Below, one piece after another: positions 690 to 51,589 of a DNA stretch of 64,000 nt (positions are counted from its first letter, which is position 1; every line of letters begins with the position of its first letter). Source of the DNA: Struthio camelus (lineage: Eukaryota > Chordata > Aves > Struthioniformes > Struthionidae); assembly GCF_040807025.1 (NCBI RefSeq), contig NC_090956.1, positions 2,468,517 through 2,532,516 of the forward strand. The letters are read 5' to 3'. The position numbers and the translations under genes were made by a program. The notes beneath the pieces were generated by a model. That model was not told the origin of the DNA. It made no database searches and saw only the letters and a program-made list of their open reading frames with translations.

Positions 690-1858
690 TAACTTCTACA
701 AAGTTTTTATTTAACACCTTATTGTTTTACATACATCTACACTTTTATAGAAAATTTGAAAAATAATTTAGCTGACTTAGGATAAAGAAGCTGCAAAAGC
801 CACTGCAAGTCGTAAGTGTGCAAAATACAGTACATCACATGTTAGTATTTTTTTTGCCCCTCGACTACCAAACCAATGCAGACAGATATTACGGTGCAAC
901 TAAAAAAGAGTATAATCAGGCTACAAATATATCTCTATTTCTAAATCCACAGTTCAAAAGTCAACTGTTAAACTGGCCATTATAAGGATTCAAATAACCA
1001 AGAGAGGAATCAGTACCATCCTATCAGTCAACTATTGCAGTATTGTAGTAAAAACAAAGCCCCGCAGTTTAAAAACCTAGAAAACTAGATTTTCTATATA
1101 CAAGCAAAACAAGCTATTTACTGCATTAGGCCTTTCTAAATCTGATTTCTTGATACAAGTACAAAAAAAATGGAGGCTGAAGATACTACTTGAAGAGTGG
1201 GTTTTTTTTTTTTTTTTATAATTATGTATCCAATAAAAGAGGGAAGGCAAACAGCATTTTAACACATACTGTTGTACTCTTCCCTTCACTTAGGAAACTT
1301 CTACCTCCTCGGCGGTTGCTCTGCTGCACATATCTCCTCCAGAACCCCATTTGGGCAACACAACAGAAGTAGAGTCGTGCTGCTACTTTGTCCCTTCCTG
1401 TTTCTCCCCCAACCCCAAACAGCATCTCTCTGTAGACTGAGTTTTCTTAGATTTATGACCACTAACTCTAAAAACAACTGCTTAATACACAGCCCTGAAA
1501 GAAAGGAAATTTCAAGAACACTTACTGAAATAGAGACACTGTTCGCCTAAACCTAGGATTTTATTTTTAGCTTTGAAGTCAATTCTTCAGCTGAAGGTAT
1601 TTAAGGGAAGAAAGAGAAGACAACCAAGGCAGAACGCATGGGAATCTAGGAAGAGATTTAGATTAAGACAAATTTAAAAAAATCCTTATGAATTTTGCTA
1701 AATTACAATTTTTCCAAAATGTTTATGAATTTGGAGACTTCATGATGAGCTGTGGTGCCAAGGGGTAGGTGCCTTAATCCCTGTCAAGAGAAAAATCGAT
1801 TAATACACTTCAGTAACTTGTCATTTTTATATAGAGGAACTTGGGCTCAGATACCTCC
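690..1858 (-). other. Probable 3' UTR of the minus-strand gene
   Basis: AT-rich sequence between the proposed stop codon and the distal poly(A) signal, with no convincing exon on either strand. It includes a T-run at 1203-1217 (A-run in the mRNA). An alternative AATAAA on the minus strand at 1565-1560 would give a shorter transcript. Confidence 0.5.
706..711 (-). terminator. Poly(A) signal AATAAA
   Basis: AATAAA on the minus strand followed by an A/T-rich stretch. It is the most distal such signal before the sequence becomes featureless. It probably ends the minus-strand transcript near position 685-690. Confidence 0.5.
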
Positions 1859-1954
1859 TCAGGCAAGCTCACTTGTGAGCTTATTTGTGGGATGTGGTTT
1901 TAAAGAGAGGGGCTTATTCCCCTTCAAGCTGTGCCTGACTTTCGGTGTTTCTGA
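1859..1954 (-). CDS. Probable last coding exon; residues 624-654 and stop
   Basis: The acceptor is TTTCTTGTAG, ending at 1955. Phase 0 continues from exon 16 and reads [20 protein letters not shown] and on to a TGA at 1861-1859, a short basic tail. This is the only phase-compatible acceptor with a good pyrimidine tract that I found before the poly(A) signal. A different last exon, or an extra small one, remains possible. Confidence 0.42.
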   Translation of the reverse strand, partial: SETPKVRHSLKGNKPLSLKPHPTNKLTSELA

Positions 1955-4900
1955 CTACAAGAAAATTCATCTTCTAAAGGCTCCACACGTAATGATTCCT
2001 CCCAAGAGAGGCAATAAACTAGATGAACTAAAGTTATCTTCTCTTTACAAATCTGAGCTGGCAACTAATTAAAATATGTGCTGAGCAATTCAGTATGTAG
2101 TTAGTTTTATCTTAGCCTGCTTGGGGGCAAAGGGGCTGTCTAGACGGACAGCTGATGAGCTCTTAGGGACAAAAAGGGTTATTAGGCTGCTTTACTGAAT
2201 ACCTGCGACGTGACAAAAATCACAACCAAACGCTCAGTGGAAATGCACAGAAACTAGTCAAACCAGTTTTATGCTATTAGGAAGAGTAAAGTTAGGATCT
2301 GGTAAGAGCTAGTGTGTTTGGCAATTCGATTTCTTGTGATCATCATGGAATCCAACCTCAATGCAAGGGTATACAAACAGACAAGCTGTCAAAATCAACT
2401 CTTTCAACCAGTTTGAACATACGCTGAGTACAATTTTCATTGGTATTAACATGGACCCTTAGAAGACTTGAATTCATTAACCTTCTCATTCTAGCTTCTC
2501 CATATACACTTATTAGGCCAACTGTCTTGCCTCAGCCATTGCAAGCAAATGACAGAACACATTTGCCTCTCAAGTACTAAAGTCTGTCTCTTATGCTTTG
2601 CTGTTAATTCTGAAATACAGAGATACTTACTGCATTGTGAAAGAAGTTGCAAAGATGCTTTGCCCATGGACACCTAAAAAATAGATTTAGATTCTTAATT
2701 CATTTTTTCTTAGGGACAGATCTGTCCACTTTCAGCCACTCCCTAAGTTGTTCATACTCCAGTGCTATGCTTGAAGGCTAATCCAGCAGTTCACTCCAAC
2801 TTCCAAATGGAGATGATTTCAATACCAAATTTAAAGAATTTAAAAACCAAGTTAGACCATCACAACAGGATTTCACCAGATTTCCTCTTGGACCTCTGAC
2901 AGAGCATACTGTAAAACCTCACAAAGAGTTGCTTCTAATCTTTGACTATTTGAGTTAAAAAGAGACAGTCATTAGAACTGTAAATTTCTTCAGTGTAACC
3001 AAGCTCATACACAACTGAATAAAAGCAGCTACTTTATTTTCTCAGCTACACACAGTTAAGGGGGAAGAGAGGAAGCAGAAAAAAGCATTTTTACAAAGAA
3101 GGTTAACTTATACCTCCTAGATTTCCAGTTAAGACAGCTCAGGAAGCGAATTCTCAACATTACTCTGCTGCCATCTGCTACATATGAGAATTAAAAATGC
3201 AGGAGCAGGCAATCATTCTGCCTTCCCGTACATGAGCGCGGAGTCCTTTGATTTTAAAACTATTATGTCAATACATGAAAGTCCATCGCTCTAAAGCTTA
3301 TGCTTTACTGCATAACACAAGAGAGCAAGGATTATACTAACAAAGAGCTAGGGGTCTCAAAGGTAATAGTGTGCTCTATTACCATTTGTAATCTAGATGT
3401 AATCCTTAGACTCTTCCAGAACTTCATTTTCCCTGCACACTCACTGAAGCTTTTTGCTATTGCAGAGTAAGTGGTCTCTCTTCTTTTAAAAGAGAAGAAT
3501 GACAGGCATCAACTTAAGGCTGTCCTCAGTTTGCATTACAATGCACAGATGTTTCTGAATCCCACTTATGGGGATCTACTCCTCTCATTACCTTGTGAAG
3601 TACTTCTTACAAAGTAAAAAGAAACGTTGACATCTGTGCACCCACTGTATTTTGGTAGATATAGAACAATACAGATTTTGAGCTACTTTAGAATATTCTC
3701 TTTAAACAAGTATTTGAAGTATTATACCTTTGTCGGGTTCGACAATTTTTTTCTGTAAATCATAATTTTTTTTTAAACTTAAAGAGAATGAAGGGATATG
3801 GATAGTGACATTTGAGTAACAAAACTAGACTGTATGCTATCATATGTTTTCCTGTTGACTGGTCATAGTTCTCCGAAATAGATAACATGTCGCCCTAACG
3901 CAGGACACTGGGAAGTTAGAAGTCCGTTTGGTTGCAATAGGTAACACAGAAAAATTTGTAACCTACCAAAGACATGGTGCTCAGCATCTTTACTATTATT
4001 AGTAATGAGGATGTGAAAAAGCAAGAATGAACTGTGAGTTAAGACTGTGTTAACCAAAAGAAAACTATCAGCACTGTCACAACACTTAATGATTTACTGT
4101 TTAACTAGGAAGATACACACTTACATATGCAGGTTCTCTGTAATAATACTCAGAGTGAACAAGCCAATGGATTGCATTTTCTTATGCCTGCAAGTCAGGA
4201 ACAGGCAAAGGAATTCACCTACATACTGAGGACCAAGGTTTTGCCACCTAATGAATATAAAACACAAGAATAACCATACTGTGTAAAAAATACAGCCCAT
4301 TTAACTCAGAATTCCATCACCAGCGATGACTGAGAACAGATTCTTTGCAATGAGCTTAAGAGCAGGACAAATCTTAAGGCTTTCTTGGTATGTGAACAGC
4401 TGGACTGGGTCAGATCTATGGCCCACCTAGCCCAGTGTCGTGCTTCTTGCAAGAAGCACGACGTGCATCTTGGCCTTCTGCAAGCCAGACATACAGAAGG
4501 GGATGCCCTAGGTGCCTTTCGTTTGAAGGAAGACAGCTGCTGAAGAACAATGGTAGCTCATATAGAGCTGAACAAAATTCATAGTCTTCTAGGTATACTC
4601 GCCCCACCTTCAGTGATTCACAGCTCAAGGGCCAACTCCTTACATCAGGAGTGCTGTTTCCATGCCAGTCATACTTTACAATCTTCTAGCAATGCATCTA
4701 ATTGTTTTTCAATCTGTATAAACTTAGCGTTTTTAGTTTTAGCTGTAGATAGTGTCCATAACATCCTGCATCAACAAAATCCACAACTCTATGCTGTATA
4801 TACACTGAACTATAAGCTTTGAGACGTATAGCCTCAGACTGCTTTGTTCTGTCGCATTAGAGTCTCTTTATGCTCCCTGGTTCTTGTACCAGAAGAGAAG

Positions 4901-7900
4901 ATGAACAATTACTCCCAACGCACCTTTTGCTGGACACACGTGATTTAACAGATCAGTATCACAACCCCAAGCTCAGATGGCTGTGTCAAGGTTAAGGACT
5001 CCTCTCATAGAGGTTGTTCCACATCTCTGATCACCCTTGTCATCCTTCTCTGTCTTTTCTAGCTCTACAGTATTTTCGAGAAGAGGAACCAGAACCACGC
5101 ACAACACTCAAGATACAGATGCAGCATTTACACACAAAGTTTTGTCCATTAGTTTCCTATTAATTCCTAACATCCTATTTGCACTCTTGGCTTTTCTAAA
5201 GCACTGAGCTGGCCATTTTCAGAGTTATGGATTATATCTTTGCTGAATATTACTGCTGTGGGACCACTCTTAATGCATCCATGAACAAACAGCCAGACTT
5301 CAGGAAGCAAATGCTTACTCACAGTTTTAGCATCGTTGCTTTTCGACAATCCAGATCTCTCAAAATCAAGTTGACAGTGCCATGGAGAACATGTTCTTCA
5401 TAGGAAAGATGGTCTAATAATAGCCTCAGAGCCCAGAAGTTATTCTAGGAAAAGATAAAATTAAAAGACAAAATGAAAAATAAAAATTAAACCTATGATT
5501 TAACCTCGGCATCAGTCATTTCTTAAGGAGAAAAAAACACCCACAAAAAACCACATACACCAAGCAGAAATTAAAGGTCAGCAAAGCTTAAATAAAACAA
5601 AGCTAAGAAAGAGTTAAATGTGCCTAAAAGCTCTAAGTGATGTTACATGGATTTTAAGTGTCATTTGCTTTAATCTGTTAGAACAGAACTCAATATCTAG
5701 GACTTACCCCAAATGCCAGGGCTATCTCTAGGAAGGAATTCAAATATGGAAGATCACAGAAAAGCATCTGCTGTACTGCTTGCACTGCGAGAATAAGACA
5801 AGCCTCACGGTGCAGCTACAGGAAGAAATATCAATAAGAAGTACGCATATGTAAAAGCCCACTTTCCCACTACTTGTCCATTGCATCTATTCAAATCAGC
5901 AGGAAATTACTACCACTCCAGTCAGAAAGAGGTTGGACGTCACACTACATCCAGAAGAATCTTAGGAAGACCACAAGATAGGAGAACAGAAAGGGTACTT
6001 CATTATACAGCATCTTTCACCTGATGCTCTCCAGCTCCTCACAGAAACATGAAGTCTGACACCATCACAGTAAAGCAGGACTACAATTAAGTGGAAAAGG
6101 AAAATTCCGGCCCAGGAGCCACAGCAGTTGAGTAAGTTAAGTGTAATTTCCTCAAAAGCAGTGACAAGTCAAGCAGGATAAGATGGCTCCTTAGGTAGGT
6201 GACTGCATCCTTATTCCAAACAAACGGCTTCTACCCGCCTTGTTTTTCCAAATCATTGCGATTTGCATACTTCAGATTAGAAAACCTTCTGACTGTATTT
6301 ACTAAACCCATTCCAAATCACCTTTAGAGATATCCCACTACACTTGAAATCATCGCTCAAAAAACTTCAGAAATTCCAGGCTATTCTGATAAAATCACAT
6401 ACGTTTGTTTTGAGACAAGCAATACTGCCAACTCTCAAAAAACGGCCTCCAATTTGAATCAAACAACGCAAGATGACTCAACCTGAGAAGTAAATACAGG
6501 ATTGAGAACTGCCAACTGCTGCATTTTATAAATGCATAAGTTTAGACAGCAAGGCATTAAGACTTTTACCAGGGTGAAGGCAGTGTCAGACCAGAACAGA
6601 CTACAGGTCGTTTACTTTCAGATACCTGGTCCAGCTTTCAGACTATGCTAAGAATAGTCTTATGCCACTTCCCAGAAATCTTCAAGCCCCCCTTAAAAGC
6701 TTGTCATAACAGTCTGACTGTCTGCAATATGGCAATTTCTTAAAGTACAATACAACAACTGGTTAGTTTTCTTATTGCCATGCACACACTTACATGAGAA
6801 GAGAAAATAGCAGATGGCAAAGAAATATTAACTTTTGCCTTCAGCTCATCCAACAGACCACTACTGGCAGCCAGCACTCCCTGCAAAAGAAGTATTGAGT
6901 CACAGGTAAAGAAGGCTGCCCATATAGTCTATATACAAACACTACTCAAGACAATTCTGTGATGTACTACTTTAATGTGATTTTATCTATTTTTTGCAGC
7001 ACCTTTTACAGATGAGGTTGATTTTTACAAGGGTGTCCTCAAGCCTCTTTGAGATTCCACAGCACCTACTAAGCAATATCACATAACCTCTTCATTTTAA
7101 CCTACTATGCTTAGCAGACGTTTATTTTTGCACCTTTGAAAAAATACCCAGATATTGGCTCTTTTAAACTATTAGAGTACATTTTTCATAAAGAAAGGCA
7201 ACTGCTTTCCTATCTATTCTGCGGTTATCTGATTTATCTTAACACTAGAAGATACAGAATCAGTATTAGGCACTCTGCAGGCAGAGTTAACTTGTTTACC
7301 ACAACATTTAATGCTTCTTTGCGCTCACCATGACATATCTGTGCTGTGTGTTAGATGTAAGAAACAGAAGTGAGCTTCCCAGTAGACTGGTTCTGTAGGC
7401 GCAGACTGAGGTATCAGCTATATCCTAGCAGGTACAACATCTACATTTTAAACACAATCCTGAAGAGCTCTTATGAAGCTTTGACGCTTGGGGGGAAAAG
7501 CTGCATCTGTGACAAAGGTACTACAGCATAGCTTGTCCAAACAATAGATCATGCACAGGGACTTTGGGCACAGACAGAGGAACAGGTCACTGTGCATCAA
7601 CTTTGCTAAAAAAAAATGGAGATTTACACACCCTTTCATCTCACAGAAAGAAAAACAGACATACAAAGTAAAATAAACCAACCTAAACAGCTTTCACTAG
7701 AACTTAAACATAGCTTTTACTAGATATTTGCAACATGTCTTGTGGGAGGACAGTTGTTTTCAACAGGTGAGTCTGAATAACTGACACCTGAGTCACCACA
7801 TTTTGCAGGCAAAGGATTAGATTCAGCGCATACCAAGAGTATTTGATAATGCACTGTAAAGCTAACCTCAATATTTAAAAGAATGAGCCAATATCCACAC

Positions 7901-10900
7901 CAAATGAAGCCTAATATAAAACCAAAACAACAAATGCTTCCATCTTATAGTATTTTTTCCAGTTACCTCTTGGAATTCAAGTGGTGGCTCTTTCAACGAC
8001 AAGGGATGTAGGTATCCGTTTTTTCCCAGCAAACTGCTACTGCCCAAAATCATGATGAGAGAACTCCAACATTTGGGCTGAAACACAGCAGAACTTTTAC
8101 TTTATGAAGTCCTTCAGCCAACCAGATAGAACTAGGTAAATAAATTTATCCCCCCCCCCCAAAAAAAAAAACAAAACTGTACATAAACCAGAACCTTTTG
8201 CAATCAGAATATGCCTCTTTGACAATTAGACGGGCATTCAGTATTTTCAGAACAGCTAGGTTCTTTTGGCTTTCCTTAAATAACCTGATCAAAGGAAAAT
8301 AAAGTGCTTTCTTCATTCCCTTATATAATGGAAACATTACTTGTATGCGCTCAGATTGCACACTAATGTTCAGGGCTTCTCAGCCCCTGAATTCCGTCAG
8401 GTGGCAAACACCCCATCCATGTTACCTTATCTGTAGCAAAAGGCAACGCTTTCCTCATCTGTCATGTTTCTATTTTATGGCCGATGAACAGACCTGTAGC
8501 TGGTGTTATCATTACAGCCCCACTGACAAGTATCAGAGCATGCATAACTTAGGATGGAGAACTGCCTAAAACAGCTGAATAGCATAACAGTAAAGACATA
8601 TTCAATATACGTATGGCACTTTCGCTTGTTGTTACCTCATTACTACAGCATGCTGTTGAACTGAGTAAGCTTGCAATGACTACAAAGATACAACATTTGT
8701 CATAATTGTATCAGTAACCTCCCAGCTGAGCCAGTGGACAATTTACACAATTTGAGACCTGTATCTGGTTTGTGGTAAGTACATCATAGCACCTCAAGAT
8801 AGGAGCCACGAACTCCAAGGTCTACAGTTAGGGAAAAAAGGACTGAAGAAATGATACTTGAGAAAATTTTTTCGCTCGCAATTTTTTCCGAACGAGTGAT
8901 AAAAAACAAACAAGAACAAACAACCAAAACAACTCACAGGAGAAAAAAGTTTCAGGGAAGTGTGAACTATGTAAAAAGCACCCTGACAGTAAACTCTTGT
9001 ACTAGAGAAATAGCATGTGGACAAAGTAGACATGTGCAGAAATAGTCAGTGGGTCACAGAAACACAATTTTAATACAGACTCACATTCCTGTATAGCAAC
9101 ATATTGCTGTAAAGCAGTTTGAGTGCCTGCTTAATCAGAACACCGTCTTTCAAAGGAGACCCTGCAAGAAGAAAAACCCAAATATATCTTGCATCCTCCA
9201 AATAACTACAGTGTATAAACAAAAACAAGACATTAACTTCATTGCAGATACACTTCTACATAAATCTAACAAAAATAAGATAAGGGAGGGCCTGCAGCTT
9301 TTCTATACAGAGTCTGCATCAACCGTAAAACGTTATCCCAGAAAGCTGCCCAAAGGACTAAATACAATTTAGCGTAAGTCAATGTAGAGGATGATCCAAA
9401 ATAGCCTTCATTATGTACACCGTATCACGGCACAGCGTGGTACACACTGTCAATCTCATACTTCTAAGACTTCTACTAGTAACAGAACAGCATCTCTAAA
9501 ATAAGTCTTTTGTTTCAGAATACACCTTCTTGACAAATATCATGAACCAAGCCAGATCAGTCAGCAGCCGCTGATCTAACAACAAAACGCAATACACAGA
9601 TCATGAAATACACTGATCTTTCCATCAGAAAGCCTTCATCCTCAAGGTCAAGGTTGAGACATATCATGAGGCTAAGTTATAGACTGACATTGGTAGTGTC
9701 ATGATCTAATAAAGGGCTTTGTATTTCTTTTTTAAAGAGATTGCTTTGAGAAAAATAGATTCACAGCTGACCAAAGTCAGCTTTTTCTGCTAAGCGCGCT
9801 AAACAAATTTATGCTCAAATCTAAAGACTTCCTTCTTGCCTAGTGTTACGTACTACATGTTAGCCTGGAGAATTTATTGCTGAATTCAGAATCCCTTAGA
9901 ATGTTACTAAATTTAGTAAGAAAGTAAAAGCTGCAACCAAGAAAGGCTCTAAACCTATGAAAACAAAAAAGGATACTTGCCAATTGTAACCCAAGGCCCA
10001 GAGTCTTGAAAATCCTTTCCACTGGGGACACTGCCTGTTCTGAACATCTTTAAGTAGATTTCAAATTGTAACGGTGTTACCCGGCAGGCAGTACAGCACG
10101 CAAGGCTATTGACTGGAAACAACAGTGAATGTGCAGCATCAAGGAAGTCTCCAGTTTTACACAAATAGAATGGGATTTTATCTCTAAGGTCTCTTAACCT
10201 GGAAAGAAGAAAACTGATCATTTGATTTTTGTTAACATGGAAGTTTGATAGCACTTAGTATCCAACTACACTTAACTAATACACTACAACCGGTAAGGCA
10301 GAAAGCATTTGCAATGCAATGTTACTTTCCATGAGCAAACAGCCACCAACATCTTGCTGCTTTGCACTCTGCCATTCTATTTCAGGTTAAAACACAGACT
10401 GAGACAATCTGAAGGCAAAGAAATTAAGAGAGTCACTTACCCTTTGGCATCATTGCATTTCACAGCTCTCAGGTAGCGAACAACTTCTTTATAGCTGGGG
10501 ATGGGGGGGGAGAAAAGGAAGCATTAGCCTGTGTACAGGTTAATCAAATATTTATTACAATTAGTAAAATAAAACAGAAGTTCTTCCGACATGGAAGACA
10601 TTGCAAAAACAGTATAGAAGTACAACTGGCAGAGAAGAGACATTTGGCTGCAAATACAAAACTGAAGTGCTGTAAATTAAAACTGCCTTTGTGCCATTTT
10701 CTGATAAACTCAAAGAGCAAAATCTCTGGACAAAGACATACCTACCATTACAAATTACTTCATACCTATATCCAAAAAAAAACAACACTACCCTTACACT
10801 AGAGTAAGGGAAGATGACCTGAACGAAGCCTCAACTTGACCTGCCTCCATATCATAAAGCCGCAAAGAAACCACGTTTGTTTATATAGTATGGATGTTCT

Positions 10901-13900
10901 GCTTTGCTAATGAACTTTCCAAGGGACTAAGTTCCAAAAAAGACACTACTGAACACAGCAGATAGCTGAAATAAGCAGCTGTTCTCAGATAAATTATGTA
11001 CGCTGGCAAAACAGAATGAGATTGCCTTGCAATTTAATTAAGTCGCTTGCATTCACACTTAAAGACCCAGAGATCAGAACATGCTTTTTTGCCGTCTCCC
11101 ACCTAGTCAGCCTTTGATCAATAGGACTTATTTTAAATGTCAGCATCTAAGACCTACTGAGGTTATGTAAACAAAGTAGTTCTCTCCACTTTGCTATTCT
11201 TTTAGGGTCCTGAAGTACAAAGAGGGCTCTTGTTTCTGCTTTGGAATCATTCAAAAAAATACTAGACTTGTTTATAACAAGTAATAGGCACGAGAAGCTT
11301 TGAATACGTTTTCACTTTTTATGTTTCCCCATAATGCATAACTTTTGCAGAACCGAAACACAGTATTGCAGTCAATACTATGCAAAACAAAGTTGAGTTT
11401 ATAAAATGAAAAAACCAAAACAAGACCAAACCAATCTTACTTTGTTTTGTCTATCAATTTCTCCACTCGAGCCTGTATAACAGGAAGTGTTTCCCACAGA
11501 AATACTTTTCTTCCTTTCTGTGTTCTTTGGCCAGTAATGTTCTGGCCTTTTAAAACAGTGGTCAGTAATACATGGTCCCATGGTACAACATTTAAGCTGG
11601 AAGGAAAAAAAAAAAATGTCATTCTTAATGCACTTCATTGGCACAGTGTAATTTATTTTCTTTAAGTAGCATGATGATTTTACTAATAAAGTATTTTGAA
11701 ATTTATAGTTCATTTCTGAAAAGTGGCTGTATGGACAACAGCTCAGCCATAGTATTAAACAACAATATTCCACTATGGTAAGGACAGCTCAGGTAAAAAG
11801 TAGGTAAAAATTCTGAAACATTCCTTTAACAACACACACATCTCTAGAACCATCAGTGAAAGAACTATTCTCTATAGCTGTATTCAAGTTAGGCAACTAT
11901 ATAAAAACATATTCTAAAAACAAACAACATACCTATTTGAGAAGCCAAAACAGTGACATGGAAGTGATATGGATTGAAAAAAATTAACAAACTTTTCATA
12001 CAAGCTTTTTGGGAAGTCACACAACACCAGCATCCTTTGAAGTTGTGTTGTGATTCTGTGTTATAAAAAGAAAGAGTTAGATCCTTGAGGAATTAAGTCA
12101 GAATCTTTTAAAAGCAGATGAATCATGTAGACTACTTCTTCTTAAACCCATGGGAAACCAGTCTGTAGTTTTTTTGTTTTGTTTTTTTTTTAATATTTCA
12201 GGTAGACATTTTGGAACTAAGTTTAAATTCATAACTAATAGGATTGCATTTTTGTTATTATTTTTAAACACCAATGAAACCAAGGCTCTTTGCTATTGCT
12301 TTTTAAGACAGAATCCCACTGAGTGTATGGGAGAAACACTACTGCAGCAGCATACAATGAGCTAGATAAGCAACCTGATTACTGTCTGTGCCAAGAGAAA
12401 TGCAAAAAACTAAGAACAGTAAACATCAGTTGCATTTAAAATTTCCTTTAATGTCATTTCTGAAGTAAATCATAAAAGCAACAGCATGTCACTTCACAAT
12501 TTACCTTAAGTGTCATTAAACTATAACAATCCAGCATGACTACGTGATTACTGATCTGAACTCTTGGCAACTTTAAGAATAGCGAAGTCTTCATCACCTA
12601 CAGTTTTCAGTTAAGACAAAACACTGACACAAATCAGAGCCTACCCTTTTAAATCTGAGGGAGAGAGTAAAAAATAGCGTCTTGCCTTTCCTGTTCTTTT
12701 AAAGTCAGAAATTAATCAATTCACCAGTAGTCACTTAAAATGAAACTCAGTATAGGATTTAGGTTGTACCCATCATTAGTTCAAATAGGAAGTGGGATGT
12801 ATAATCGTTTTTGAGTGTTCCTAAAAAAAGTTAATTCCTATTTCATTAATCTTCTGTTGCAAGTGAGTTTCAGGTTAAAGGTGAAGTATAAAGCTAAAAT
12901 GAGAAATGAATTAAGCCAAGCGAGCTAGATGTCCTCATTCATCAGCCTCTGGGGGAACTTTACTATGTTACATCCCTGACTACTCCCCCCTTGCTGAGGA
13001 CTAGACGGCTCATGTTTTGATTCTTAACAGACGCTATATACTCTCAGGCTTACTAATCGCAAGTAGCTACACCATCTTCTGGTCTGGCCTTACAAAACAC
13101 TCCTAGACTACAGTCTAAAAGTTATCCAAGGGTTTTTGGATGTTTACATGGGGCTGATCAAGGCAGATATTGCCTTTGTTCTTCACAAAAAGTGGACTAA
13201 TATTCAACAGAACGGCTCCAAATCCCAATTTGTAGCGTATAACTGTAAAACACGATAGCATGCTAAGGTATCTGCCTATAGAGCAGACTGGTGCATATTG
13301 TTGTTGCTTTGTATTCTTCTGCCTTTCCCTACCCGTCTGCAGTTTACACCCAGGCAGTAGGCTCTCCTTGCTTTGGTGCTCTTCCCTGATAGTGGTTCCT
13401 GATGCTACAGATCCATAAGACTATATATATCTGTATTCTGGAGCTGTGCAAATTTACTTTTGGCCTTTAAGAGCTAAGGCATTCCCATTTTCCTTTATGC
13501 TTTTGGAGAAGAGTCATCTTAAATGTGTTTTGTACAAGTACCATAGCAGAAAGTTTGCGGCCACCAACCATCCTGTTGACACCTCAGCATTATATGAGAG
13601 GACAAGTCTCACCTTTGCAGCAGACAAGGGACAGCAATCTTTAATGAAGCAGTCTGACCAAGGTTCTGCCAGCTTCTAAGAAAATAAACAAAACAAACAA
13701 TGCACTGTTTAATGCTTATGTTCTCTTTCTACCTTTTTTCCTTCCCTATGCTCAACTGCTTAGGAAAACACTTCCTTAAAAGAGCAAAACACTTCCTTAA
13801 AAGAGCACTGGGAGCTAAAAAGGTAATAAGAATTATTCCAAACAGTTTTAGCAAGTGCTTAAATTGTAAAAACATTTTATATTCTAGAATTAACACTGTT

Positions 13901-16900
13901 TGTTTTACAGCACTAAAGTATACCAAAGTCACACACAAAGACAGTACAGCAGTACCTAATCACCTACCCTGCTTTATTAGGCCACCAAGTGCACATCTTT
14001 GACCGTGCAGGGTCCCAAAGGGTTGTACGTCATCAGCCCCCTGAGACGATCAAACCACATCCCATCTGACTACAGTGAAAGCTCTGGGACTCAGAAAAGC
14101 ATACAGAGAGAGACTTACTCAAATAATACATCCAGCCTGCTCCTTGCAAATCCTGACAGTTCCCCAGAAAAAAGAATTGCAGAGAAGATGCTGTGGTCTG
14201 AACTGGTTTGACAAGTCAGAAACATTTACTGCTGCTTTGCAGATACCCTTGAATTTAAAACCCAAAATATTTAGATTTTGCAAAGGAAAGCTCTGGGACC
14301 TTGCTCAAGCTAGGCAGTAAAGAAGCACGAAACATGCACGTGTGCATCACAACAAACACAAATGATGTAAACAGGAAAAGAAACAGCAAGATAAGTAGCA
14401 AAGACTGAAACATTTAAAGCCTTTTTTAAAAAAGTTATTAAGTATTGCATCCTCTCACTGAAACAGGTCAGCTTCCTGGAGGCTTACAGGAGGGCTCTAA
14501 GACCTGTCACCTGAAGAACATCACATTCTCACTTCCCTCCAGTTCGGAAGCAGAAGTTCTTCTGCACAACACAGCTTGTCTGTTCTCTCAGGAAAGCTCC
14601 CCTGCCCCTGTACGTTCTCCTGCGGAATCAGTTCCCACCCTCCACCATTTGCTGTCTTCCTGCCTCTCTCCTCCCAGTTCCCTCCCCTCATCTGAGATCA
14701 TCTCTCCCCCTCCTGACTCAATCCCAGTCAACTCCTTCCTCCCACATCCAGCCTCAGCCCTTCTCTTTTCCCTAAATCCCCCCTTGTAACCAATTTCATT
14801 TCTCCCTCAGGTGTACTCATGTTCCTCTTATTGTGCTGCCACCACAGCTGCGATATTTACAGTATCCTTTCCCTTAATACATGGGAAAACAGCATTCTTG
14901 CTTATTCTCTTCCCCTTGAGAGGCAAATGAGGATTACACATCAGTTGTGGAACGGGATACTTACAAAGCAGGGTCTTTATGAAGTGCTATCTCTTTAGCT
15001 GCTCCCAGAAACATGACAGCAGCAGCTTTAGGATTCTCTCTTTCTGCCTGATTTAAAAATCTGGTTACCAGCGCAAAAACTCCAGAATACCTAAGAAAGA
15101 TAAGCAGCCCATGATGTACTTTGTAAACAAATGGCAATTATGACCATTCTGTAGTTTGAAAGCAAGTTGATTCGTCTTTCCTTGATGAGAATCCAGGAGA
15201 CAGTGACAGAGCATTTGCACAAGTTTTCTTTTAAGCATTCTGGAGGCACACACTGGACTAAAAGTGGAACCCAGTCCTAGCAGACTAGAAAGAATATGGG
15301 CTTTAGTTTCATGCTTCCCTAAACTATAATAATGAAGCATATGATAAAATTATCAATAACCTAACAATGCTAAGATCCTTGATAATAATCAAGCATCTTA
15401 GCACAGCAGGAGAGATTTATTTAAAGATGTAGTTAGGGGGCTGCTTAAACTACATCCAAGTGCAACCCAACTTCCCACTGGCTAAACCGTCTCAGTTACG
15501 TTTCAGCTATTTTCAGGTTGCCATGATTCTAATTATTACTTGACTAAAGGAAAACAAACCTGCTTTGACCAAGATGTATTGCTAGTAGCCGAGTAACTGA
15601 ATTCTGCCGTCACTTACTTGTACACAACCTCCATTTGGCGTGATTTGCAGGTATTGCATTGCCCAGGTGGCAGTTTTGGGAGACAAAAACATTCGTATTG
15701 TTTGGGAGGCATTTTTTCTCCAGTCAAATACTTATTATATTCCACCGAAAGTTCACGGATAAAATTTATTAGAAGACTTCCTAGAAGGGTGAGCAGAGGA
15801 GATGTGAAACTGTTAGTGCAAAAATCTTCTTCAAACCATGAAGAAACAGACGGTCATTCACATGCACCTTATATAAAAGGTTTTGCAAGTTATTTGTGCC
15901 CAATCTTATTGGCCAGGCAAACTTTTCTGCTTCTTCCTGGAGGAGGAAAACGCGTGACTAGACCTGCAGATTTGTGTCTGGTTTGTGTACGCCCCAGGAA
16001 AAAGGTAGCAAAAGTAAGCTACCACCCAAACAATTCACCAAGCCTTAGCAAAGAGGGCTGTGGACCGAAGAAATTGCCCTTGCAGGTTACAAAGGTCATC
16101 AAGCCACAGACTGAGCAGCCATTGTGAGCCACTGGTCTTCCGGGACAATATGAGAGCATAATACTCACCACCATGCCGAAGGTCTGCATCTATGTCTGTG
16201 AGCTCCAAATTGAACATTACAAGAACACCAGCCAAGGCAAAATCACGCTGGTCCTTCCAGAATTTGCTTTTGTTATGCGCATTGCAATGACAAAGGGAAG
16301 GGGTTGTCCAGTTCTGGCACTATTTCACAAAAAGTGAAAGACAGGAAAAGTGTTTGTTTCAGCTGAGCAAATCAAGAGTTAGTTCCTCTCTGAGTGAAGG
16401 ACTATAATTCACTTCATCCTTTACATGACTAGGCAAAGGCACAGTGAGACGTATTGACAGGAGGTCAATATGGCAATACCTCGATACCATGGCATGAAAA
16501 GAAAAGGAAAAAAAAACCCCACTAATTCCCCCTCATTCCCAAACACCTTACAGGAACACTTAGGGCCGGCATTCTCCCAGTGGGTTGGTAACAGAGTACT
16601 GTTTTCGGATGCTCCCCCCTACATCTTTCACAGTTCAAAAACTTTTGAACTCTTAAAAACCGAAACAAACAAAAAACCCAACTTCCCCTCACCTTAGTCT
16701 CAGGTTAGAAAAACCTAAGAGTTTGACCTTCATCTACTGCTGTGAAAAGGAATCAGATTACTAAAACAGACAGCATGAAATACACCGTGTGCCTCAGGCA
16801 AACAGGAGCTACGTTTTTTTAGATCAAGCAAAGAGCCGTTCCAATAACTTCCCAGTTTACTAGAAGTAACCTCAGACATTGACCAAATGGAAAGTATTAG

Positions 16901-18164
16901 TAGTATTGGGAAGACGACAGATCCCAGCGTTTGGGATCTGTACCAAAGACGACAGATATCAACGTTTTGGAGGGGAACTGTTAAAATAATCAAAATGTCA
17001 TGTATCATTTGTTCTTTTAATTGTGCATAAGAATTATTTCTTTCAAAGCCTGTTGAGGAATTCAGTTTACTCAAAGTTGTGTGTTTCTTTGCTATAGCTC
17101 TTCCTTACCTCAGAAGCTAGCTTATCACAAATGTAGCAGTAGCACTGATTACAAATATCAGCATTTTTTCCAAGGGGTGAACATGTATCACATTCCATTC
17201 GCCTACAGAGTTGAAAAACAAAACATTGTTTACGGCACAGGCTACATATCTATCCAACTCTATTTCTGCTTTCAATTCTTAAAATCCTAACAGGATTACT
17301 TGCAAGGTGGACTAAATGTGGAAAAGGAAACCCCCATATTATCCTCCACATCATTGAACATACTCAAACGGATGTCTTGTACAGTCGTATCTTGCATGAG
17401 GCATAACTTTGGCTTGTTTACAGAAAGTAACCATTAGTTCACCCTCCTCATCCACAACCTCTCCAGATTTCTCCTCTTCCAGGACAGTCGTCTCTGTAGA
17501 AAAGAGAATACCCAGGATAAATCAGTACAAAATAACTACAGCTTCATTACAAATTAAATCAGCTATTGACATTTATTTCTGAAGCACTTCAAGGCAGGGA
17601 TTTTGTTATGATTTCATATCGTGACAATAAAAAAAGGTACACTGACCTGGGACAAAATCCTCCACCTATCGAGAGAGATAATTTAACTAAAAGGGGTCCA
17701 ATGAACACCAAAAAGGGCCCAGTCTCAGACAGCTTAGTGATATTTTTGAACCTATACAGCAGTATTCTTTAGCATAATTAGTGCTGTTGGAAAAATTCCA
17801 AGGTATGAAAAAACGCTCCTTTCTACGGACTTCAGGAGAATAAGTATGTTTCATTTTGTCTATTATTGCGCCACTTTCTGCTCATTGAAAGACCTCAAAA
17901 TTGTGTTGGGAAAATAACAACAGACCGTGCTGTTTGAAAGTACAGGTTGGACCAGAGACATCCTAAAGTCTCTTCCAATCCTAGTTACTCTGTGATTTTA
18001 CTTCAGCTTATCTTAAAAGTTACCAAACTTTACAAAACTTCATAGATACAATACTTACCTAATGGGTCTACTAACACAACTGAACTCCCAAGCGTGTTCT
18101 CAGCTTCATCATCACTGATCAGGATTACACTCTTCTCTTCCTCGTCTCCATTTGATGGCCCCAT
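1859..18164 (-). CDS. Unnamed SIM- and Cys-cluster protein, 17 coding exons, about 654 aa
   Basis: Spliced gene assembled from the sequence. Coding exons (minus strand, 5' to 3'): 18164-18059, 17493-17364, 17202-17109, 16319-16169, 15780-15618, 15090-14965, 12055-11933, 11596-11441, 10494-10441, 10198-9981, 9161-9085, 8077-7967, 6880-6794, 5815-5708, 5444-5323, 2673-2631, 1954-1859. Coding length is 1965 nt and every junction keeps frame. Visible parts: two SUMO-interacting-type motifs (residues 13-20 VILISDDE and 29-34 VVLVDP); acidic linker 40-54; Cys/His cluster 60-125 with CNQCYCYIC at 96-104; a second small Cys group 191-205 (CxC, then CxxC); CCxxC at 402-406; and a long Leu/Ala-rich, probably helical body to the C-terminus. 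There is no signal peptide or membrane segment, so it is probably nuclear/cytosolic. I cannot assign a named family. A role in SUMO-linked nuclear complexes is inferred only from the SIM-like motifs. Coding status is very likely; function is unknown. Confidence 0.88.
2631..2673 (-). CDS. Coding exon 16; residues 610-623, 43-nt micro-exon
   Basis: The acceptor is ATTTTTTAG and the donor is GCA|GTAAGT. It completes the split Leu codon of exon 15 and adds [14 protein letters not shown]. Phase and splice sites fit, but the exon is small and sits 2.6 kb from its neighbour. Confidence 0.68.
2674..5322 (-). other. Intron 15, with an old CR1-like repeat
   Basis: Intron between coding exons 15 and 16, bounded by GTGAGT and TTTTTTAG. 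The half nearest exon 15 is filled by a degenerate LINE-like repeat, described separately. The rest is AT-rich with nothing recognised. Confidence 0.65.
4390..5290. repeat. Degenerate CR1/L3-lineage LINE-like fragment
   Basis: Text such as CTGGGTCAGATCTATGGCCC with CCACCTAGCCCAGTGTC, and later AGAACCACGCACAACACTCA with TTCCTAACATCCTATTTGCA, matches from memory a repeat family common in bird and turtle introns. Boundaries are approximate and orientation is not certain. No intact reading frame is left. Confidence 0.5.
5323..5444 (-). CDS. Coding exon 15; residues 569-608
   Basis: The acceptor is TTTTCCTAG and the donor is ACT|GTGAGT. It encodes [20 protein letters not shown] followed by [13 protein letters not shown]. 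An old repeat lies in the next intron, only a few tens of bases from the donor. Confidence 0.87.
5708..5815 (-). CDS. Coding exon 14; residues 533-568
   Basis: The acceptor is TTCCTGTAG and the donor is GGG|GTAAGT. It has 36 codons in phase 0 ([20 protein letters not shown] and onward to LEIALAFG), strongly helical in pattern. Confidence 0.88.
6794..6880 (-). CDS. Coding exon 13; residues 504-532
   Basis: The acceptor is CTTTTGCAG and the donor is CAT|GTAAGT. It has 29 codons in phase 0 ([20 protein letters not shown]...). Symmetric exon. Confidence 0.87.
7967..8077 (-). CDS. Coding exon 12; residues 467-503
   Basis: The acceptor is TGTTTCAG and the donor is GAG|GTAACT. It is exactly 37 codons, phase 0 at both ends ([20 protein letters not shown] and on to PPLEFQE). 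As a symmetric exon it could be skipped without frameshift. Confidence 0.87.
9085..9161 (-). CDS. Coding exon 11; residues 442-466, helical
   Basis: The acceptor is TTCTTGCAG and the donor is AAT|GTGAGT. It encodes [20 protein letters not shown] and then LLYRN. The split Gly codon is completed only when exon 10 ends at the GC donor. Confidence 0.87.
9981..10198 (-). CDS. Coding exon 10; residues 369-440, ends at a GC donor
   Basis: This is the largest coding exon (218 nt). The acceptor is CTTTCCAG. The peptide includes [25 protein letters not shown] at 402-406 and [10 protein letters not shown]. The donor is TTG|GCAAGT, a non-canonical GC donor. A nearby GT (GGCAA|GTATCC) would break the frame to exon 11, whereas the GC site keeps it. 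Confidence 0.87.
10441..10494 (-). CDS. Coding exon 9; residues 351-367, 54-nt micro-exon
   Basis: The acceptor is ATCCCCAG and the donor is GG|GTAAGT. It encodes [17 protein letters not shown], one short helix. It joins exons 8 and 10 in phase through split Asn and Gly codons. Confidence 0.85.
11441..11596 (-). CDS. Coding exon 8; residues 299-349
   Basis: The acceptor is CCTTCCAG and the donor is AA|GTAAGA. The peptide runs [20 protein letters not shown] and then a basic, Gly/Gln-rich loop ([12 protein letters not shown]) and [18 protein letters not shown]. It looks like a compact folded segment with a charged loop. Confidence 0.9.
11933..12055 (-). CDS. Coding exon 7; residues 258-297, helical
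   Basis: The acceptor is TATAACACAG and the donor is AG|GTATGT. The peptide includes [20 protein letters not shown] and then [10 protein letters not shown], amphipathic with several Cys. Phase matches both neighbours. Confidence 0.87.
12056..14964 (-). other. Intron 6, longest intron, no exon needed
   Basis: The flanking exons join in phase, so no coding exon is required here. It contains a perfect 21-bp tandem duplication at 13765-13806 and a pyrimidine-rich stretch near 14550-14820. Short open frames inside look random. Confidence 0.6.
13765..13806 (+). repeat. Perfect 21-bp tandem duplication
   Basis: Two identical adjacent copies of AAAACACTTCCTTAAAAGAG plus C. Probably a recent replication-slippage event in an intron. 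Confidence 0.9.
14965..15090 (-). CDS. Coding exon 6; residues 216-256, helical
   Basis: The acceptor is TTTCTTAG and the donor is TT|GTAAGT. The peptide ([20 protein letters not shown] and onward to HKDPA) reads as two amphipathic helices. The intron that follows is the longest in the gene at 2.9 kb, and no further exon is needed inside it because exon 6 joins exon 7 in phase. Confidence 0.88.
15618..15780 (-). CDS. Coding exon 5; residues 162-214, second small Cys group
   Basis: The acceptor is CCCTTCTAG and the donor is ACAA|GTAAGT. A helix ([17 protein letters not shown]) is followed by YECFC at 189-193 and CNTC at 202-205, a CxC-x8-CxxC arrangement that could bind a further zinc ion. 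Confidence 0.9.
16169..16319 (-). CDS. Coding exon 4; residues 111-160, end of Cys cluster
   Basis: The acceptor is GTGAAATAG and the donor is GGTG|GTGAGT. Cys111, Cys120, His121, Cys122 and His125 (LCHCNAH) close the cluster. [12 protein letters not shown] and an amphipathic helix ([17 protein letters not shown]) follow. It ends one base into a Gly codon. Confidence 0.9.
17109..17202 (-). CDS. Coding exon 3; residues 80-110, core of the Cys cluster
   Basis: The acceptor is CTCTGTAG and the donor is GAG|GTAAGG. In 31 codons the exon carries C83xxC86 and C96xxC99xC101xxC104 (CNQCYCYIC). It is missed by simple ORF calling because it is short, but without it exons 2 and 4 cannot be joined in frame, which strongly supports it. 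Confidence 0.87.
17364..17493 (-). CDS. Coding exon 2; residues 37-78, acidic linker and first Cys/His
   Basis: The acceptor is TTCTACAG and the donor is TTTGA|GTATGT. The exon encodes a Glu-rich stretch ([17 protein letters not shown]) and then the start of the metal-binding-like cluster, with Cys60, His68, Cys73 and His76 in [12 protein letters not shown]. It ends two bases into a Glu codon, completed by the next exon. Confidence 0.87.
17925..18000 (+). repeat. CR1 LINE 3' end fragment
   Basis: GGTTGGACCAGAGACATCCT followed by CTCTTCCAATCCTAGTTACT and CTGTGATTTT is the recognisable 3' end of a CR1 element on the plus strand, antisense to the gene, within intron 1. The many mismatches indicate an old copy. 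Confidence 0.7.
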
Positions 18165-18190: not shown

Positions 18191-18599
18191 CTATGCAGCA
18201 GCAAATAGGACAGAAGGATGTTTCCCAGTTATGAAGGTCCTTTCCTCAACAGAAGACTCAGATTCCTCATCTATGTTGAGTAAATTACACTTGGGACAGA
18301 AACATTTAACCCTCACAGGAGTCAGCAGCTCAGAAAACGTTGCGCTTCCCATCCAAAGCAGAGAGAAATCTAAAAGCAAGGAAGCAGGAACAGAACAAAA
18401 TGTGACACCTGCTATTCCTTTGGTGGGACAGCCTTTGAAAAGAGCTATTAATTTAATAATAAAAACTATTATTTTTTCCAAATACTTTAGCTACCCTTCG
18501 CAGATTACCTGCCAGAGGCATCAGAAAGGCTTAGCACAGGCCAGCCTGCTCTCACCGCTCACGGAGTCCCAGTCCTTCAACAACTACTTCCCCCAAATT

Positions 18600-19950
18600 C
18601 ACCCCCGACTCCCCCACAATCCATCCTGTGTCCTCCCATAACAGCCCCCTGCTCCCATCGGCCCGACTCCCCTCATCCCCTCCCCTCTTAACCACGGCAC
18701 GCCCCCCACAGCTGCCCCCCCCACAATCCCCTCACCCCAAAACCCATCACACCCCCACAACCACCTCCCCCACACCACTGCCTCCTCTCCACCTGTCCCA
18801 GGCAGTCCTAATCCCCTCTCCCACCTCCCCACGCATCAAGTCCCCCATGGCCACCTCCCCCAACCCACTCCTCTCCCCTCTCAATCCATCCTGACCCCCC
18901 TCAGTCTCACTCCCCCACTCCCCCCCCAAGTCCCCTCAGCTCCCTCCCCCACAGCCTCCTCCGGGCTCCCTCCTCCCCAGTCCACACCAAATCCTTCCTG
19001 TCTTCCTCCCTGCCCCAATCCACCCCACCCTCGGTTCCCAGCCCCTGCCAACCGCCTTTCGGCTCCCTCCTCCCCACTCCCCCCCCCCCAAACCCCCTCA
19101 GCTCCCTCCCCCACAGCCTCCTCCAGGCTCCCTCCTCCCCAGTTTCCTCCCCCCAAGCCCCCTCAGCTCTCTCCTCCCCACAACCCCCCCCAAACCCCCT
19201 CAACTCCCTCCTCTCCACAACCCCCCCAAACCCCCTCAGCTCCCTCCTCCCCAGTCCCCCCCCCCCAAACCCCCTTAGCTCCCTCCCCCACAGCCTCCTC
19301 CGGGCTCCCTCCTCCCCAGTCTCTCCCCCCACCCAAAACCCCCTCAGCTCCCTCCTCCCCAGTCTCCCCCTCACAAACCCCCTCAGCTCCCTCCTCCCCA
19401 GTCTCCCCCTCACAAACCCCCTCAGCTCCCTCCTCCCCAGTCCCCCTCCCCCAAACCCCCTCAGCTCCCTCTCCCACAGCCTCCTCCGGGCTCCCTCCTC
19501 CCCAGTCTCTCCCCCCACCCAAAACCCCCTCAGCTCCCTCCTCCCCAGTCTCCCCCTCACAAACCCCCTCAGCTCCCTCCTCCCCAGTCTCCCCCTCACA
19601 AACCCCCTCAGCTCCCTCCTCCCCAGTCTCCCCCCCCAAACCCTCTCAGCTCCCTCCTCCCCAGTCTCCCCCCCCAAACCCCCTCAGCTCCCTCTCCCAC
19701 AGCCTCCTCCGGGCTCCCTCCTCCCCCCAACCCCCCCCCCAACCCCCTCAGCTCCCTCCTCCCCAGTCCCCCTCCCCCAAACCCCCTCAGCTCCCTCTCC
19801 CACAGCCTCCTCCGGGCTCCCTCCTCCCCAGTCTCCCCCCCCCCCAAAACCCCTCAGCTCCCTCCCTGCCCCCCACCCCCTCCTGGCTCCCTTCACCTCA
19901 GCCCACCCCACACCCCTCCGGACTCCCTCCCTGCCCCCCAACCCCCCTAA
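18600..19950. repeat. C-rich minisatellite with higher-order structure
   Basis: C-rich on plus, G-rich on minus. The basic unit is about 39 bp, built around CTCAGCTCCCTCCTCCCCAG, interspersed with a CACAGCCTCCTCCGGGCTCC variant. That variant starts near 19289 and again near 19475, giving a higher-order period of about 186 bp. The minus strand has few stops in two frames (256- and 158-residue Gly/Glu/Arg-rich frames), which I read as a by-product of the repeat. It probably lies in the first intron of the minus-strand gene, near its promoter. Confidence 0.85.
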
Positions 19951-49545: not shown

Positions 49546-50135
49546 TCGGGAGATCATTTTGCTGGCTCACAGATCTCACACTCAGGTTTGCTTGATGTCA
49601 TGCTGGAAAGCAAAAATGTCCGGCACCGGCCTCGACTCACTGAAAGAGCTGGAGAAACTCTGCTTTAACCCTGAACGACGGAGGGAAGAAAACGGGGGGG
49701 TTTCAGGGAGAGCAACTGAGCAGGAGTCAAACGCTCCGGGCAGAAACAGCAATCTGCGGCGCCCAGCGCAGGGCCGGGCGCGGGAGCAGAGCGGGGCTCC
49801 CACGCGGACCCTGCACCGGCGCCCACCGCGCCGGGCACCGCTGCGGCCTCCTGCTTGGGAACGGCCCTGCGCTTGGCAGGCTCATGCCGGGCAGCGAAGG
49901 GGCCGGGGCCGCGCGCCGGGAACCCGCAGCCTCCGTGTTTCTCTGTGCCGACTCCGTGCCTGCTTCGAGGGCCGATTAACTAGGCAGACTGGCCAGCCTC
50001 GGACGGACTCGTTAGCTCTGCAGTATCAGTGCCACATGTTTTTTAGGCAAAAACGGCCATGCATCCGCCCGCAAACGGTCCCGCAAGCCCACCTGCGGCA
50101 CACGTGTGCACCCTGCGCCCGCCCCGTGTGTGCGT

Positions 50136-50276
50136 GCAACACCCCCTGCACGGCTGCAACACCCCCTGCACACGTGTAACACCCTGTGCACGGCTGCAAC
50201 ACCCCGTGCACATGTGCAACACCCCGTGCATGGCTGCAACACCCCGTGCACACGTGCAACACCCCGTGCACACGCC
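50136..50276 (+). repeat. 20-bp minisatellite in 40-bp dimers
   Basis: Seven near-copies of a 20-bp unit of the type ACCCCGTGCACACGTGCAAC, alternating with a version carrying CGGCTGCAAC, so the true period is 40 bp. The reverse strand stays open in three frames and reads Cys-rich repeats. I treat these as repeat artefacts. Confidence 0.9.
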
Positions 50277-51090: not shown

Positions 51091-51164
51091 AGGAGACGGG
51101 AGCAGCGGTGAGACAAGGGATGCCCTGCGAGAACAGCCTCCGACTGTGCTTGTGTGCGTGCAAG

Positions 51165-51307
51165 CAGCCGTGCAACGCAGCCGTGCAACGCAGCCGTGCA
51201 ACGCAGCCATGCGATTCAGCTGTGCAATGCTGCCAAGCAATTCAGCCGTGCAACGCAGCCGTGCAATTCAGCTCTGCAACGCAGCCGTGCAACGCCGCCG
51301 TGCAACG
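51165..51307 (+). repeat. 13-bp minisatellite, 11 units
   Basis: Eleven head-to-tail copies of CAGCCGTGCAACG or close variants, with no gaps in phase (143 bp). It shares the core GTGCAAC with the minisatellite 0.9 kb to its left. Confidence 0.93.
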
Positions 51308-51589
51308 CAAGGCGAGGGCAGCCCTCGGAGGGGTTGCCCTCATCCCTGGGGCTCTCTCCTTGCCCCCGCGCAGACCGTGCCAGCTGCTGACCATTTCCCC
51401 CAGCTAGGACGGCCAAGCCTCTGCCTCTGCCCCCCACCCACTCGCCCACACGCGGGAGCTTTTGCAGCGGCAAGGCGAGCGGATTTTCCTAGCGACCCCT
51501 GACCCACGACCCATCACTCCGAAGCAGCAAACCCACTCATTTCCTGGCCGGTTCCTCGGGGACCGCACTCGGAGCCTAAAGCCCACCCC

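Follow-up and report, generated by a model that had tools for sequence, protein, structure and literature searches.

An intact-looking ostrich gene of an uncharacterised family that may encode a SUMO-reading nuclear scaffold

SIMC1 is a protein in which SUMO-interacting motifs (SIMs) are combined with an Nse5-like alpha-solenoid. The paper that describes it reports that no yeast homologue of SIMC1 came up in standard searches, and that HHpred had to be used (PMC9708086). The gene that we describe here lies on the minus strand of a 64,000-nucleotide stretch of DNA from the ostrich, Struthio camelus (the window), and its predicted protein resembles SIMC1, considered together with SLF1 and SLF2, in that SIM-like motifs, defined in our case by a pattern match, are followed in the same order by a helix-rich C-terminal region (PMC9708086). 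The two proteins also differ, in that the SIMC1 solenoid is preceded by a disordered N-terminus (PMC9708086). A Cys/His module lies between both parts in the ostrich protein only, and this protein has no match among PDB sequences at E<=10.

Two further comparisons can be drawn. SUMO-targeted ubiquitin ligases of the RNF4 type likewise place SIMs before a Cys-rich module of the zinc type, but the ostrich protein differs from them in giving no RING match and in having an added long helical C-terminal part. The uncharacterised zebrafish protein zgc:112980 and the plant RIN13-like proteins (RPM1-interacting protein 13) appear to resemble the ostrich protein in the Cys/His pattern PH.R..C....PF ... 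C..CYCY.CD ... HC.A....W that follows an acidic, hydrophobic N-terminus, and we take the Cys module to be the same in all of them; the plant members, unlike the ostrich protein, are not known to have the long helical body. We presume that the protein is best placed with the zgc:112980 type (the PANTHER family of that name), and the gene probably belongs to a family that is known by database numbers only.

Gene model and coding evidence

The locus looks like a real vertebrate protein-coding gene, functional and intact, that belongs to an uncharacterised family. Its chain of 19 coding exons (2073 nt) was assembled by hand from open frames and splice sites, using phase continuity, and runs on the minus strand from an ATG at 18164 to a TAA at 1705-1703, giving 690 codons plus the stop and a predicted protein of 690 amino acids and 77.9 kDa. 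The features of this model, all on the minus strand, are as follows.

18059..18164, minus, coding exon 1: ATG at 18164; both SIM-like motifs
17364..17493, minus, coding exon 2: acidic linker and beginning of the Cys/His module
17109..17202, minus, coding exon 3: core of the Cys/His module
16169..16319, minus, coding exon 4: last part of the Cys/His module (CHCNAH...W), after which the helical part begins
15618..15780, minus, coding exon 5: the second group of Cys residues, CFC...CNTC
14965..15090, minus, coding exon 6: helix-rich body
13613..13675, minus, coding exon 7
11933..12055, minus, coding exon 8
11441..11596, minus, coding exon 9
10441..10494, minus, coding exon 10
9981..10198, minus, coding exon 11: GC donor at 9979-9980 (TTG|gcaagta)
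9085..9161, minus, coding exon 12
7967..8077, minus, coding exon 13
6794..6880, minus, coding exon 14
5708..5815, minus, coding exon 15
5323..5444, minus, coding exon 16
4125..4187, minus, coding exon 17
2631..2673, minus, coding exon 18
1703..1780, minus, coding exon 19, probably the last and the least certain: TAA at 1705-1703
706..711, minus, AATAAA as a candidate polyadenylation signal, some 1 kb beyond the stop; a further one at 1560

Every intron of the chain ends in AG; 17 of the 18 are of the GT-AG type and one is of the GC-AG type. The GC donor of exon 11 was preferred to a GT a few bases further on, since of the two only the GC leaves an open frame into exon 12. When ranked among the sites of the region, the donors fall between the 77th and the 100th percentile (16 of 18 at or above the 90th) and the acceptors between the 70th and the 100th (17 of 18), which places 33 of the 36 splice sites of the chain at or above the 90th percentile. 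Exons 6-10 and 13-15 are phase-symmetric. Since phase guided the choice of exons by hand, the fact that all 19 join in phase is not independent evidence for the chain. The base composition of the joined frame is informative, with a base-by-codon-position chi-square of 39.3 that exceeds every one of 500 controls (mean 10.3, maximum 29.3), these being mosaics of stop-free intron pieces with lengths matched to the exons.

A naive exon chainer, which used a splice-site matrix and later also approximate human codon usage, returned a different chain of 15 exons that scored 81.0, against 37.4 for the hand-set chain under the same scheme. Seven of its exons are identical to ours, four have one boundary in common and four are absent from our chain. 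Only sites scoring above 0 were open to the chainer, and those that it ignored, scoring 0 or less, include three of the 19-exon chain, for which the codon term under this scheme was -21.3. Human codon usage suits the locus badly, given G+C contents of 38.6% in the introns and 40.2% at third codon positions. Naive exon finding was set aside, as it lacked the power to find every exon and favoured the other chain.

The sequence-only reading had drawn the gene as 17 exons and 654 codons that end at 1859, and this chain could not be reproduced. Position 1859 is the final base of a TGA in an open frame, and the exon from 1954 that would lead to it has no acceptor among those scoring above -2. The broader claim of a multi-exon gene on the minus strand stands, given the open chain and the codon-position bias, with an exon chain that differs from the one first reported. 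Our own C-terminus is provisional, because the acceptor of the last exon at 1780 (99.0th percentile) is outscored by a competing acceptor at 2116 (99.7th percentile), use of which would leave room for eight residues (AKIKLTTY) before the stop.

Upstream of the coding chain, a possible uORF of 53 codons plus stop (MGSATFSELL...) occupies 18191-18352 on the minus strand; it contains CFCPKC and an acidic stretch, and ends 26 bases 5' of the main ATG in a different frame. Directly upstream of the gene, at 18918-19810, lies a minisatellite that is rich in pyrimidines and has units of close to 186, 147 and 39 bp.

Protein features and family searches

The N-terminus of the predicted protein is acidic and carries two SIM-like motifs, VILISD(DE) at residue 13 and VVLVD(PL) at residue 29. 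The SIM-like pattern, which had been chosen afterwards to fit both motifs, occurred at least twice in 152 of 20,000 shuffles, and the pair may therefore be due to chance. These motifs are followed by the Cys/His module, in which 15 Cys or His residues fall within residues 56-125, a density matched by 25 of 5,000 shuffles when these were scanned at every second start, and by a second Cys group of the form CxC...CxxC (Cys 191, 193, 202 and 205). The sequence-only reading had named all of these elements, and all are present as sequence. It had also described a long helical body, and the remainder of the protein is indeed helix-rich, as judged solely from a crude Chou-Fasman propensity profile. 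No internal repeats were found in the helical body, with the observed score reached by 50 to 106 of 200 shuffles at five cut points, and a repeat solenoid thus gains no support.

Searched as a whole, the protein matches no Pfam family at E<=10, RING, PHD and SP-RING families included, and phmmer searches of PDB sequences gave no match at E<=10, so that no SUMO-binding or solenoid protein of solved structure is linked to it by sequence. Pieces of the protein gave sub-threshold matches only. The N-terminal piece aligns residues 75-122, within the Cys/His stretch, to profile positions 8-50 of the OBERON-type PHD finger (PHD_Oberon, PF07227) with E 1.4, a likeness that does not amount to membership, as its 9.2 bits fall short of the cut-off of 28.8; pAdhesive_8 was matched with E 0.12. 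Within Pfam and PDB sequences, then, the earlier impression that the protein fits no named family is borne out, and no well-described protein emerged at E<=10 over its whole length. Exact 8-residue patterns from the Cys module, an approach that finds close relatives only, gave no match in viral contigs (six patterns) and 13 matches in prokaryote genomes, none of which was confirmed. In the open-access literature we found no mention of PTHR33443, of zgc 112980 when written without its colon, or of six peptide strings of the CYCYVCD type, and the papers found on loss in mammals did not contain the term SUMO-interacting.

Copy number and genomic neighbourhood

When the whole protein was used to search the ostrich genome (262 contigs, 1.45 Gb), it returned 19 matches at E<=1, and each of them is an exon of this locus. 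The gene is single copy in its own genome, with no other copies at this threshold. It is located between GNG13 and LMF1, near CHTF18, RPUSD1 and mesothelin. These neighbours were identified in flanks of 80 kb per side, mesothelin, RPUSD1, CHTF18 and LMF1 among the ORFs of at least 150 aa that were listed there, and are given here in window coordinates.

near -47 kb: mesothelin-type ORF (PF06060, E 5.6e-10)
near -27 kb: RPUSD1, recognised by eye, no Pfam match
near -19 kb: CHTF18 (AAA, E 6.8e-9)
-7.5 kb: GNG13 (G-gamma, E 1.2e-7)
138 kb: LMF1 exon (PF06762, E 1.6e-17)

Pfam searches on neighbour ORFs gave matches for three of five (AAA, Mesothelin and LMF1); the other two, the RPUSD1 ORF and a second CHTF18 ORF, were recognised by eye. 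The names RPUSD1, CHTF18 and GNG13 are our own assignments. We take the order of these neighbours to be that of human 16p13.3, where the interval from GNG13 to LMF1 is not known to contain such a gene. A loss of the gene in mammals is thus a lead rather than a result. One paper on this region places Lmf1 next to Sox8 in mouse, and refers to a duplication at 16p13.3 involving GNG13 and SOX8 enhancers (PMC11849977).

Elsewhere in the window, no gene exon was spotted by eye among ORFs of at least 100 aa between 20000 and 64000, and Rfam gave no match anywhere in the window. Short tandem repeats are present at 50133-50274 (20- and 40-bp units) and 51157-51309 (13- and 52-bp units). A CR1-like LINE reverse-transcriptase ORF, of a kind that suggests a sauropsid such as a bird, was recognised by eye on the minus strand some 54.5-55.4 kb to the left of the window.

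Possible functions of the protein

A SUMO-recognising scaffold is a plausible product of this gene, given the SIM-like motifs. Our working interpretation, to which we give a little less than even confidence, is that the gene encodes a SUMO-reading nuclear scaffold of an uncharacterised family, in which SIMs, a zinc module and a helical platform may be arranged by the logic of SIMC1. The two N-terminal motifs would bring the scaffold to SUMO-rich places in the nucleus, whilst the Cys/His module and the second Cys group may fold around zinc and either hold the N-terminal part together or bind a partner. The helix-rich C-terminal two-thirds could then serve as the platform for a partner complex. 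Such a protein would follow SIMC1, which combines SIMs with an alpha-solenoid, in its general logic, but with a zinc-type module inserted between its SIMs and its helical part. We infer SUMO binding, zinc binding, a nuclear location and the existence of a partner from the layout of the protein.

The protein may instead be a zinc-binding adaptor or a transcription coactivator, whose acidic, hydrophobic N-terminal stretches would bind a target other than SUMO, for example as an acidic activation segment, as has been suggested for plant RIN13. The density of Cys and His in residues 56-125, the sub-threshold PHD_Oberon match and the presumed resemblance to RIN13 all lean this way, and we regard such a role as a serious possibility, if one that we would on balance bet against. 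What speaks against it is that VILISDDE fits the usual SIM pattern, and that the second motif begins 16 residues later.

It is unlikely that the protein is catalytic, with a degenerate zinc domain of the RING or PHD-like kind acting either as an RNF4-like SUMO-targeted ubiquitin ligase or as a SUMO ligase. RNF4 has its SIMs and its Cys/His module in this same order, and the PHD-type match is in keeping with this, but that match falls far below its cut-off and the whole protein gives none of the corresponding Pfam families. We think it similarly improbable that this is a known, well-described gene under a different name, lying outside the sources covered, which for eukaryotes were Pfam, PDB sequences and open-access papers; no Pfam family claims it, and the GNG13-LMF1 interval in human is not known to contain a well-described gene of such a kind. 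That the locus is a decaying gene or a chance chain of open frames is highly improbable, for although the naive chainer missed the full chain, rated another higher and gave ours a negative codon term, the codon-position bias and the high ranking of most of the splice sites argue against this.

Returning to the SUMO-reading scaffold, a much bolder version of this interpretation can be put forward, which we consider a long shot. The gene may have been kept in sauropsids and fish and lost in mammals, and its product may act in parallel to SIMC1-SLF2 as a SUMO-directed scaffold, recruiting a complex for chromatin or DNA defence to places in the nucleus that are rich in SUMO. The zinc module would in that case share common descent with that of the plant immunity protein RIN13, and animals and plants would have in common a SUMO-linked defence module that is so far unstudied.

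What is novel about this gene is less a new kind of system than the fact that it has been so little studied. If mammals are truly without it, then its function is out of the reach of mouse and human genetics, and if the Cys module is common to plants, then it represents an old eukaryotic module with no role assigned to it in animals. An intact-looking, single-copy vertebrate gene of 690 residues that matches no Pfam family is a concrete target for characterisation.
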